In this document: positions 7,629-40,331 of the stretch, piece by piece
Layout: each line of letters begins with the position of its first letter
Position numbering within the stretch: position 1 is the stretch's first letter
Assembly (NCBI RefSeq): GCF_019218265.1
Contig: NZ_JAHUZE010000001.1
Span: 992,001 to 1,056,000, forward strand
DNA length: 64,000 nt
Direction of reading: 5' to 3'
From: Maritimibacter dapengensis
GTDB taxonomy: Bacteria > Pseudomonadota > Alphaproteobacteria > Rhodobacterales > Rhodobacteraceae
Translations under genes and position numbers: made by a program
The notes under the pieces: model-generated
What the model was told of the DNA's origin: nothing
The model's database searches: none
The model's input: the letters and a program-made list of their open reading frames with translations, nothing else

Positions 7629-8753
7629 GTGAAACGCGGCTTCTATATCTCGGGGATCGGACACGGCCTCCTGATGCTGTGGCTACTCTTCGGCGGCTTC
7701 ATCGAGCGCCGGTCGGAGGAGCCGCCGCTTCCGGCGGCCGATATTTCCGTGATTTCCGCCGAGGATTTCGCGGCCCTGACCGCGCCGGAGCCGGGCACGC
7801 CCGAGCCGGAGCCCGATGCCGCGCCGATAGAAGCGCCGACGCCGCCCGCGCGTCCCGAGCCGGAGCCAGAGCCTGAACCCGCGCCTGAGCCGGAGCCCGA
7901 ACCCGCGCCTGAACCCGAGCCGCAGCCCGAACCCATCCCGGAGCCCGAACCCGCGCCCGAGCCGGAGCCCAGCCCCGAGCCACCCGCGCCCGATCCGGGC
8001 ACGCCCGATGCCGACATGACCTCGGACACGCCGACGCCGCCGGACGCGGACAGGGTCGGGAGCGAAGTCATCACCCCGCCGGAGGAGCCCGCCGAGGTTG
8101 CGCCGGAGCCGCAGGAAAGCGTGTCGGAGAGTGAAGACCCGGACGTGCAGCCCGCCGAGGAGCAGGACGCCGCTCAACCCGAAGCGCAGACGACCGAGAT
8201 CGTGACCGAGGCCGAGACGCCATCGGCCGCGCCCGAAACTTCGGTGCGCCCGCGCTCTCGACCCAGCCGCCCGGAGCCGCCCGCCGAGCCGGTCCAGACG
8301 GCGGAACCCGACCCCGCGCCGGCCGAAGAACCCGCGCAGACGAGCGATCCTGTCGAAGATGCGGTGAACGATGCGCTCGCTGATGCGTTGGACACCCCGG
8401 AGCCGGGTGCGGGCGAGACCCAGGCCCCGCTGGGACCGCCGCTCACGTCGGGTGAGCGCGACGGGCTCAGGGTGGCGGTGAGTCAATGCTGGAACCTCGG
8501 GTCCACCTCGACGGATGCGATGGCCACGACGGTCGTCGTAATGGTGCAGATGGCCCCCGATGGTCGTCCGCAGGGGATCGAACTGGTCTCCTCGGACGGC
8601 CCGAACCAGGGTGCGACGCAAACCGCCTTCCAAGCGGCGCGTCGTGCTATCATTCGGTGCGGAGCCAGTGGCTATAATCTGCCGAGTGAGAAATACGAAC
8701 AATGGCGCGAGATTGAAATGACGTTCAATCCAGAGAATATGAGGCTGCGATGA
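7629..8753 (+). CDS. tolA: TolA, periplasm-spanning linker of Tol-Pal
   Basis: TolA connects the TolQR motor to TolB-Pal. The 374-residue protein begins with an inner-membrane helix containing the SxxxH-like [17 protein letters not shown], then an unusually Pro-Glu-rich linker (about residues 55-120 and on to about 270) rather than the Ala-Lys helix of E. coli, and a C-terminal globular domain from about residue 285 with the family Cys pair (QCWNLG and IIRCGASG). The start is GTG 7629. The last four bases overlap tolB (ATGA). Confidence 0.9.
7852..7990 (+). repeat. Tandem Pro-Glu coding repeat within tolA
   Basis: The DNA repeats short units encoding PEPEPEPA-like runs (codons GAGCCC, GAACCC, GAGCCG alternating with GCGCCC). 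It codes for an extended, rigid periplasmic linker. Such repeats can change length by slippage, so the exact unit number may vary between strains. Confidence 0.75.
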
Positions 8754-38804: not shown

Positions 38805-39349
38805 TGGCCCAGACCGAATACACCCTTCCGCGCCCCGACTTCGACACGCCGGTGAAACTTCTTATCGTCGTTGCCCCGTTCTACCGCGAGATCGCCGATG
38901 GGCTGATCGCGGGCGCCAAGGCCGAGATCGAGGCCGCAGGCGCGACCTATGAACTCGTCGAAGTGCCCGGCGCGCTCGAACTGCCGACCGCCATCGGCAT
39001 CGCCGACCGCACGTCGAATTTCGACGGCTTCGTCGCGCTCGGTTGCGTGATCCGGGGCGAGACCACGCATTACGACACCGTGTGCAACGATTCATCGCGC
39101 GGGATCATGGAGCTGGGTCTCCGGGGCCTGTGCATCGGGAACGGTATCCTGACGGTCGAGAACGCCGAACAGGCCGAAGCACGCGCCAACCCGGCGAAGA
39201 TGAACAAAGGCGCCGGTGCCGCTGCCGCCGCGCTTCATCTTGTTGCGTTAAGCAGAAAGTGGCGTGGGGGCGAAAAGCCGGTTGGCTTCCAGCCGCGCGG
39301 GGAATACAAGCTCGCCGGCACACCCGACGAAGGCCCCAGCCGCACATGA
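38804..39349 (+). CDS. ribH: 6,7-dimethyl-8-ribityllumazine synthase RibH
   Basis: Forms the lumazine precursor of riboflavin from the RibB and RibD products; assembles into pentamers or icosahedra. The 181-residue product has VVAPFYREIADGLIAGAKAE, VEVPGALELPTAI and GCVIRGETTHYDTVCNDSSRG, which are signature active-site segments. The C-terminus is slightly longer than in E. coli (GFQPRGEYKLAGTPDEG). It starts at the ribBX stop and overlaps nusB by 4 bp. Confidence 0.97.
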   Translation: MAQTEYTLPRPDFDTPVKLLIVVAPFYREIADGLIAGAKAEIEAAGATYELVEVPGALELPTAIGIADRTSNFDGFVALGCVIRGETTHYDTVCNDSSRGIMELGLRGLCIGNGILTVENAEQAEARANPAKMNKGAGAAAAALHLVALSRKWRGGEKPVGFQPRGEYKLAGTPDEGPSRT

Positions 39350-39846
39350 CCGAAGATCAGCCCCAGGACGCCCCCAAGCGTCAAATGTCAGGCAATTTGA
39401 AACGCCGCATGAAGTCCGCCTCGCGGCTCTATGCCGTTCAGGCGCTGTTTCAGATGGAAGCGGCAGAGCAGGGGCTGGAAAAGGTGCGCAAGGAATTCGA
39501 GACGCATCGCTTCGGTGCGACCTATGAAGAAGGCGAGTTCGAAGAGGGCGACGTGGACCTGTTCCGTGCGCTTCTGAACGAAGCCGTCGACCGGCAGGCC
39601 AAGATCGACCAGATGACCGACCGCGCGCTTGTGGCGAAATGGCCCATCGCGCGGATCGACCCGACGCTGCGCGCGCTGTTTCGCGCGGCGGGGGCCGAGC
39701 TTCTGATCGGGGACACGCCGCCCAAAGTGGTGATCGTCGAATTCGTGGATGTCGCCAAGGCGTTCTTCCCGGAAGGCGAAGAGCCGAAATTCTCCAACGC
39801 CGTGCTCGACCACATGGCGCGGGAGGCCCGGCCCGAGGCGTTCTGA
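39346..39846 (+). CDS. nusB: Transcription antitermination factor NusB
   Basis: NusB, with NusE, binds boxA RNA and supports rRNA antitermination. The 166-residue all-helical product contains SASRLYAVQALFQMEAAEQG and the C-terminal KVVIVEFVDVAKAFFPEGEE, typical of the family. ATG 39346 overlaps the ribH stop; the ribH-nusB pairing is widely conserved. Downstream is a 179-bp regulatory region before the next gene. Confidence 0.95.
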   Translation: MTEDQPQDAPKRQMSGNLKRRMKSASRLYAVQALFQMEAAEQGLEKVRKEFETHRFGATYEEGEFEEGDVDLFRALLNEAVDRQAKIDQMTDRALVAKWPIARIDPTLRALFRAAGAELLIGDTPPKVVIVEFVDVAKAFFPEGEEPKFSNAVLDHMAREARPEAF

Positions 39847-39890
39847 ACGCCCCGTTAACCTTTTGCCGGCTCTCGCGATCTGGCAGGTTT

Positions 39891-39934
39891 GCCATACGCT
39901 TTCCATACGTAATACATATGTGTTCCATACGTCG
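39891..39934 (+). repeat. Four tandem 11-bp repeats (iterons)
   Basis: Four consecutive 11-mers: GCCATACGCTT, TCCATACGTAA, TACATATGTGT, TCCATACGTCG, consensus TCCATACGTNN. The 11-bp period is about one helical turn, so all sites face the same side of the DNA. A TTGCCA at 39889-39894 and TACATA at 39913-39918 could be a promoter overlapping the repeats. They lie 90-135 bp before the small membrane protein gene at 40026. No regulator is assigned. Confidence 0.65.
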
Positions 39935-39984
39935 TTGAGCGAGAAAGCGGCGGGGTTACCGGTGCGACTCGATACCGCTTTGGA

Positions 39985-40012
39985 CTCATATATTCGCGTG
40001 CTAATATGTGAG
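39985..40012 (+). promoter_or_regulatory. Imperfect inverted repeat abutting the RBS of the membrane protein gene
   Basis: CTCATATATT (39985-39994), spacer CGCGTGCT, AATATGTGAG (40003-40012): nine of ten bases pair. It ends just before the ribosome binding site AGGAGGT. It may be a second operator, or an RNA hairpin that controls translation. Confidence 0.5.
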
Positions 40013-40025
40013 TAGGAGGTGGCCT

Positions 40026-40331
40026 ATGCCCAAGCTCGTCAAACTCTACATTCGTCAGGTTCTGATCGGTTTCGGTCTTGCCGGTGTCTTCGTCGCGCTG
40101 CTTTTGTGGCAGAACGTCGCGAACCTCTGGCACCTCGTCTCGACATCCGACATCGGCTGGATCGCGGTGGTGATGTTGTTCATGGGGCATGGGATCGTTT
40201 TCGCGGGCGTGCAATTCGCCATCACCATCATGCGGATGGGTGAAGAGGACGAGCCCAAGGGCGGTAAACGTCAGCCGATTGCGACCAACATCCCGGTGCG
40301 CATCGAGGCGACCGCGACAAAGCGTCAGTAG
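40026..40331 (+). CDS. Small two-helix membrane protein, unknown function
   Basis: A 101-residue protein with two hydrophobic segments (about residues 10-28 and 42-66) and a basic, cytoplasm-like tail. ATG 40026 follows a strong AGGAGGT; the frame is open one turn upstream but without Shine-Dalgarno. I do not recognise a family. Its upstream region is unusually elaborate (four 11-bp repeats and an inverted repeat), implying tight control. Its 3' end overlaps the nitroreductase gene on the other strand by 7 bp. Confidence 0.7.
   Translation: MPKLVKLYIRQVLIGFGLAGVFVALLLWQNVANLWHLVSTSDIGWIAVVMLFMGHGIVFAGVQFAITIMRMGEEDEPKGGKRQPIATNIPVRIEATATKRQ

Follow-up and report, generated by a model that had tools for sequence, protein, structure and literature searches.

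Few chromosome-wide networks of DNA sites are known, namely parS, matS, KOPS and Ter. MatP and its site matS serve terminus organisation in enterobacteria. Ribbon-helix-helix (RHH) proteins are mostly repressors, and read bases with alternate residues of their β-strand. In Rhodobacter sphaeroides, the response regulator CenR binds TGA-N8-TGA direct repeats at promoters (PMC9275681).

The array described here was found in a 64-kb window, meaning the whole stretch of DNA analysed, from Maritimibacter dapengensis. It consists of four 11-bp units, and has relatives dispersed over the chromosome and in other Rhodobacteraceae. We hypothesise, with a probability of roughly 0.63, that it is one node of a chromosome-wide, replication-polar network that is read by a fast-evolving, domesticated antitoxin. 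A search of open-access full texts found no description of the motif or of such a system.

The array and its neighbours

The features discussed are listed in Table 1. The original prediction described four TCCATACGTNN units at an exact 11-bp pitch, and these are confirmed. The array is the sole 33-bp stretch in the window that matches itself at 21 or more positions at lag 11 (score 23). The third copy is degenerate, as had been stated, but the others are not all near-identical, because the first unit (GCCATACGC) also departs from the consensus. Elsewhere in the window, at 7854-7998, there is a tandem repeat of CCCGAGCCGGAG-like units with periods of 6 to 36.

Table 1. Coordinates of the array, its units and neighbours in the window, and of the gene for the candidate binding protein.
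Feature	Position	Strand	Remarks
Array, four 11-bp units	39891-39934	-	Read in the direction found upstream of the putative binder gene (CGTATGGNNNN)
Unit 1, GCCATACGCTT	39891-39901	-	First-unit variant, C at position 9
Unit 2, TCCATACGTAA	39902-39912	-	
Unit 3, TACATATGTGT	39913-39923	-	Two changes from the 9-bp consensus
Unit 4, TCCATACGTCG	39924-39934	-	
nusB	39346-39846	+	Neighbour; Pfam NusB E 1.8e-28; stop codon to array 44 bp
101-residue small membrane-type protein	40026-40331	+	Neighbour; ATG 40026, stop 40331; array to ATG 91 bp
BrnA-like gene, M. dapengensis genome (G000)	G000:C1:862710-863156		Outside the window

The length of 101 residues predicted for the downstream protein is right. 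Queried without its first Met, this protein has no match in Pfam or PHROGs; a homologue is present at the nusB locus in 12 of 17 relatives. The array had been read as a regulator array acting on this gene, with a promoter inside it. In outline this reading is borne out as regards helical phasing and a protein that binds cooperatively; a local site for the membrane gene is not supported. Only two of the 12 relatives with the homologue (G001 and G030) have a lag-11 array (score ≥20) after nusB, and 8 of the 32 arrays in the genome lie between convergent genes. A scan with one consensus found no sigma-70-like promoter in 39700-40150 (0.2 expected).

Dispersed arrays in the M. dapengensis genome

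It had been proposed that the whole genome be searched for the motif. Allowing up to 3 mismatches, a pattern of two units gave 44+43 matches in the M. dapengensis genome (G000), against 0+0 with the reversed control. The 87 matches mark 33 places. At 32 of them there is an array, with three to five units recognisable at a pitch of 11 bp; the other (L026) is not an array. The suggestion of replication-like iterons does not survive this result, since iterons would form one array beside a rep gene, and what is found is 32 dispersed arrays and no single-origin array.

Within the 32 arrays, information is high in the four core units and near background outside them, except that a spot 3-5 bp past the arrays is weakly T-rich and a weak bias directly precedes them. 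The units differ according to their place in the array: at position 9, 25 of the 32 first units have C, whereas T stands there in 25 to 28 of 32 for units 2 to 4. The array thus has the look of a protein-bound site with a direction of its own, rather than of a duplicated segment.

None of the arrays lies within a called gene, coding sequence making up 87.7% of the 20-kb stretches around the arrays (own ORF caller). Eight are in convergent, 5 in divergent and 19 in tandem gaps, compared to 4.7, 9.3 and 18.0 expected from the available bases, a difference that is not significant (chi-square p=0.11); an earlier gene caller had given counts of 7, 5 and 20. There is thus no promoter preference; promoter avoidance is only suggested. 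In the tandem gaps, 11 of the 19 arrays are nearer to the 3' end of the preceding gene. Orientation to the neighbouring genes is mixed, and an RNA element is therefore unlikely.

All four large contigs (C1-C4) carry arrays, and these are spaced more evenly than random (CV 0.56 vs 0.91, P=0.00075; 28 gaps, median 104 kb). The 16 smaller contigs (359 kb) contain no array, where 3.2 would be expected (P=0.04).

Arrays in related genomes

Absence of the motif from orthologous upstream regions, together with the lack of a binding protein, had been named as what would refute the original reading. The outcome is divided. The exact three-unit core is absent from all 60 relatives examined, but in G001, of the same genus, an 11-bp array of other sequence stands at the same place after nusB (lag-11 score 24). 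In G030 the score there is 20, in a GC-rich low-complexity stretch; in G006 degenerate units are visible by eye, with a score of 15, which is background; and scores in the remaining 14 relatives range from 12 to 16. When 200 kb each of G003 and G004 were scanned at lag 11, four matches came up (two N runs and two without unit structure); with about 1.8 arrays expected per 200 kb, this counts only weakly against arrays in these genomes. G002, G005 and G007 were covered by CATACG-type patterns and at the nusB site only.

Arrays of this kind are also found in other Rhodobacteraceae; their units vary from genus to genus, and within the genus too. The four-unit pattern CAKACG (up to 3 mismatches) has matches in 19 of 120 family genomes, with up to 120 per genome, counts that include single or chance-like matches. 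The exact three-unit CCATACG is found in at least 114 stretches of GTDB genome contigs. Among the matches listed, 77 of 80 loci bear names that we assign to Rhodobacterales, contigs of Pseudooctadecabacter jejudonensis and Puniceibacterium sediminis being among those with arrays; the other three of these 80 are MAGs of other groups, and two of them show perfect simple repeats. When ORFs within 2.5 kb were compared, few array neighbours recurred across genera. Some array places are nevertheless common to different genera, even where the letters have changed; one, found in G000 and in an Octadecabacter MAG, is presumably before a chorismate-mutase-like gene, downstream of ffh.

It is worth adding that seven viral contigs of about 50% GC (L183-L189) carry CCATACG 11-bp arrays, some adjoining 11-bp repeats of other sequence; five of the contigs share one sequence. 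They seem to represent a different array, carried by phages and perhaps serving as iterons or excisionase sites, and are not counted as evidence for a chromosomal network.

A candidate binding protein

One neighbour that does recur among ORFs within 2.5 kb of arrays in different genomes is a gene for a small RHH protein. Its start adjoins array L018 in G000 and, in two Amylibacter records, arrays L101 and L131; apart from this the surroundings differ. The protein matches BrnA_antitoxin (PF14384) with E 1.7e-8 in G000 and 1.9e-12 in Amylibacter. All 22 seed proteins match this family (Pfam E≤0.001), and one also matches DUF3022 weakly. Among solved structures the best matches are unrelated (E 0.78 and 0.83). 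A single-sequence fold of the Amylibacter protein is poor (pLDDT 54), and its strand-helix-helix order fits RHH.

A BrnA-like match is present in 45-46 of the 120 family genomes. All ten genomes with at least 4 CAKACG matches are among the 46 carriers (P=3.5e-5), and nine out of nine if G000 is left out (P=9e-5). This count excludes G083, which has 57 CAKACG matches vs 59 in the reversed control and probably contains low-complexity repeats, and retains G147 despite its raised control (13 against 17). In G010, G105, G126, G136 and G147 the BrnA-like gene adjoins an array already found by the CAKACG pattern. Within the genus, the protein is present in two of the seven relatives (G001 and G006), and both yielded arrays in a count that leaves out locus L242; G002, G003, G004, G005 and G007 have none at E≤0.01. 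A 22-member profile matches 127 of 394 family genomes at E≤1e-9, an upper bound because the weakest matches cover the RHH part only. In a class-wide draw, at profile E≤1e-15, two of 190 genomes match, both in Rhodobacteraceae. A profile search of viral contigs gave 32 pattern matches, none of which was confirmed by tblastn.

Some genomes do not follow this pattern. G017 has 13 GTCGG-pattern matches, several of them array-like, yet no BrnA-like match, and the same is true of G026 and G079, with two array matches each. The array-like places in G017 are GTCGG/GTAGG 11-bp matches at C2:43828, C10:538, C20:4792 and others.

BrnT (PF04365), the toxin that would be expected alongside a BrnA, was not found in 14 of the 17 carriers searched, G000 included. 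In the other three it is on contigs other than that of the BrnA-like gene. The two proteins are therefore not a working BrnTA pair. On the basis of its recurrence beside the arrays and its co-occurrence with them, the BrnA-like RHH protein probably binds the 11-bp arrays.

Arrays upstream of the BrnA-like gene

Loci with a BrnA-like gene were taken from a larger number of matches; the 122 used give 106 unique proteins. The 260 bp upstream were tested for self-similarity at lags 7 to 16, with a score out of 33. A lag-11 array scoring ≥20 is present upstream of 67 of the 106, compared to 0-3 of 106 at other lags and 3 of 102 in a downstream control at lag 11. Lag 11 is the best lag in 83 of 106, and with a threshold of ≥18 it is found in 82 of 106 vs 4-15 at other lags. 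This leaves 39 of 106 genes without an upstream array scoring ≥20. Measured from where the profile match begins, the array lies at a median distance of 75 bp, and its position upstream of the binder's own gene suggests autoregulation.

The units fall into a number of classes that differ between genera, including GTATGG, GTCTGG, GTCGG, GTATGAC, GTGCAC, GTACAC, ATGCAC, TTCATAAC, CTTCCTTCCGT and more. The strand of the BrnA-like protein has the form K-x-[K/R]-x-T-x-R. Among arrays scoring ≥20, a K in the third place goes with a GG-type core in 20 of 24 cases (CA 0, other 4), and an R with a CA-type core in 28 of 38 (GG 2, other 8); five further arrays go with another third-place residue. With no score cut, the figures are 35 GG, 1 CA and 6 other for K, and 34 CA, 3 GG and 17 other for R. 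Fisher's test on the GG and CA cells at the score cut gives p=5e-12, which is optimistic because the classes were set after the table of units had been examined. Mutual information with the core is 0.545 at this place (0.037 when shuffled), followed by 0.271 and 0.244 at two other strand places. Thus, as computed from these sequences, one β-strand residue, K or R, appears to predict the core of the array. One array outside both classes is L218 (G108), upstream of a BrnA-like gene, which has near-perfect CTTCCTTCCGT units and the strand GLRVNLRL.

On a tree built without the strand columns, the residue changes 12 times and the core class 11 times. Only four independent pairs lie on supported branches, about three of them concordant and none discordant (sign test p 0.25), so that the association between residue and core still includes the effect of relatedness.

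Whole-genome searches for TGCAC and GTCGG provide a separate check on the classes. The TGCAC search used three units with up to 1 mismatch; it counts matches rather than arrays, and palindromic cores count on both strands. R-class genomes have 7 to 95 matches (G001 28, G006 35, G018 14, G115 31, G361 95, G063 70, G078 7, G122 29, G104 37, G262 86), compared to K-class genomes (G080 0, G136 1, G098 1) and non-carriers (G004 2, G003 4, G009 0, G012 2, G013 0, G017 0, G033 0). Three GTCGG units give 11 to 289 matches in carriers of that unit (G312 289, G384 21, G358 191, G241 108, G202 11, G066 87, G150 37), compared to others (G009 1, G012 5, G013 0, G017 13, G033 6, G018 2, G115 0, G361 2, G080 1, G136 0). 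The dispersed arrays thus follow the class of the protein.

These observations bear on two further explanations. The many copies per genome might indicate a dispersed mobile or self-copying repeat without cellular function. However, there is little conservation beyond the units, some positions are common to different genera though the letters have changed, the unit tracks the strand residue, and the spacing and polarity would not be accounted for; we find this explanation scarcely credible. Alternatively, the arrays could label the species' own DNA, for uptake, gene-transfer-agent packaging or recombination, with the fast change of unit being itself the function. The units do vary between genera and within the genus, and the BrnA-like proteins of G001 and G006 are only 49% and 51% identical to that of G000, where NusB is 85 and 89% identical. 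Against this, there are only tens of sites per genome, and known uptake signals number hundreds to thousands. We regard such a label as very improbable.

Spacing and polarity

Even spacing is seen again in G262 (C1, 25 arrays, CV 0.60, P=0.0055; C2, 19 arrays, CV 0.57, P=0.0083). It is borderline in G105 (C1 P=0.052, C2 P=0.023). In G066, with 33 arrays on one large contig after exclusion of three matches that are not array-like, the CV is 0.75 (P=0.064), and array orientation forms 10 runs vs 15.6 expected (P=0.021).

The strand of the unit at the binder's own gene gives a common convention for the direction of the arrays. The K-class unit is on the gene strand in 19 of 24 cases, reversed in none and undecided in 5. 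In the 38 R-class arrays, ATGCACA is on the gene strand in 10, reversed in 1 and undecided in 27. For 26 of the 32 arrays of G000, the unit strand read in this direction coincides with the one on which 20-kb GC skew is positive (r=0.73, a value reached in none of 20,000 permutations). The array of the window is one of the six with opposite polarity. The same agreement was predicted for G105 before its sequences were examined, and is found in 19 of 20 arrays (r=0.83, p=2e-5). In the R-class genome G262, where the unit is C-rich on the positive-skew strand, it holds for 30 of the 44 arrays on C1 and C2 (permutation P=0.013), the skew having been interpolated there from sparse samples and the polarity being weaker. 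On the positive-skew strand the K-class unit is rich in G, and in that class mutation bias could therefore contribute to the polarity.

Polarity tracks the skew of third positions and of intergenic DNA, whereas it shows no such relation to gene-strand balance (r -0.09 and 0.14 for the latter; G000 and G105). With GC skew as proxy, the polarity of the arrays is therefore replication-type and not transcription-type. It is measured on contigs rather than closed chromosomes, and skew presumably stands for the direction of replication. It is an imperfect proxy for replichores, since along the 2.2-Mb contig C1 of G105 the 20-kb skew changes sign several times, with array orientation following; these changes can be read as inversions or as scaffolding errors.

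A rival explanation would be a global transcription regulator that acts through some 30 operators, with the gene after nusB perhaps among its targets. This would fit with the fact that most RHH proteins are repressors, with the promoter position of the array at the binder's own gene, and with the location of 19 of the 32 arrays in tandem and 5 in divergent gaps. It is less easily reconciled with the 8 convergent arrays, with the lack of preference for divergent gaps given their availability, and with the small number of array neighbours that recur between genera, and it leaves unexplained both the even spacing and a polarity that follows GC skew rather than gene strand. We therefore consider a regulon unlikely.

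The polarity, which is common to three genomes, and the absence of all 32 arrays from called genes would also suit a polar barrier to replication or translocases, in which a complex of four dimers slows forks or motors in one direction, chromosome-wide and Tus-Ter-like. A barrier of this kind seems somewhat less likely still than a regulon, because the arrays are scattered over four large contigs and not gathered, and because to our knowledge RHH proteins are not fork barriers.

Proposed model

From the computed dispersal, intergenic placement, spacing, polarity against GC skew, and co-occurrence and co-variation with the protein, we infer a mechanism for the replication-polar network proposed above, including the physical binding and its stoichiometry, the autoregulation and the cellular role. 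About 32 copies of a 44-bp polar operator would be dispersed over the chromosome in steps of about 100 kb. Each 11-bp unit would be read by a dimer of the orphan BrnA-like RHH protein, so that four dimers would line up next to one another along the same face of the helix. One dimer per unit is the simplest reading; the GTGCAC cores of the R class are palindromic, as expected for a symmetric dimer. The BrnA-like gene, having an array in its own upstream region, is probably autoregulated.

The network would be replication-polar, with CGTATGGNNNN on the positive-skew and presumably leading strand. A placement that is intergenic, promoter-indifferent, even and replication-polar favours a task carried out along the arms of the chromosome. 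The most likely role would be to provide positional and directional information for a process acting along these arms, candidates being segregation, loop extrusion, and fork or translocase polarity. Whether this amounts to a general chromosome-navigation system of the Rhodobacteraceae, in which a toxin-less BrnA reads evenly spaced and oriented arrays, and the K/R residue and the arrays change together repeatedly, is to our mind an evenly balanced question.

If the model is correct, it adds to the short list of known site networks a polar chromosome-wide one of sites and protein, built from a toxin-antitoxin part. It would also constitute a natural experiment, in which a DNA-binding specificity switches repeatedly and the dispersed sites follow. 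The co-evolution of one protein with tens of sites could then be tested by a one-residue readout.

Comparison with known systems

Several classes of repeat were rejected. CenR resembles the present system in having direct repeats of about one helical turn, and comes from the same bacterial family (PMC9275681), but response-regulator repeats of this type do not fit because of the TGA-N8-TGA motif and because the arrays have no promoter preference. Operators of the OmpR/PhoB type would be at promoters, whereas 8 of 32 arrays lie in convergent gaps and there is no preference for divergent gaps (p=0.11). REP- or MITE-type mobile repeats would have conserved ends or flanks, and here information is near background outside the units.

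Among systems read by RHH proteins, MetJ at its met boxes and other tandem RHH operators are similar in that units at fixed pitch are bound side by side by RHH dimers. However, the MetJ boxes are 8 bp long and occur at few promoters, whereas here the pitch is 11 bp and the sites are chromosome-wide without promoter preference. BrnTA is similar in having an RHH protein of the BrnA_antitoxin family, with an operator-like array upstream of its gene. It differs in that no brnT is adjacent here (17 carriers), and that the sites are all over the chromosome.

The two closest chromosome-wide systems are MatP/matS and KOPS/FtsK. Like matS, the arrays are dispersed chromosomal sites with a (putative) RHH reader. 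In contrast, matS is palindromic and confined to Ter, whereas here the units are tandem and direct and occur on all four large contigs; the MatP family is not among the Pfam families that the 22 seed proteins match (E≤0.001). KOPS has a chromosome-wide polarity with respect to replication, as the arrays do by the GC-skew proxy only. But KOPS are single 8-mers in hundreds of copies and are read by FtsK, whereas here there are 44-bp four-unit arrays, 32 in G000, and the protein that co-varies with them is of a different family. The arrays and their protein thus fail a defining feature of every family tested, although their function may still be of a known kind.
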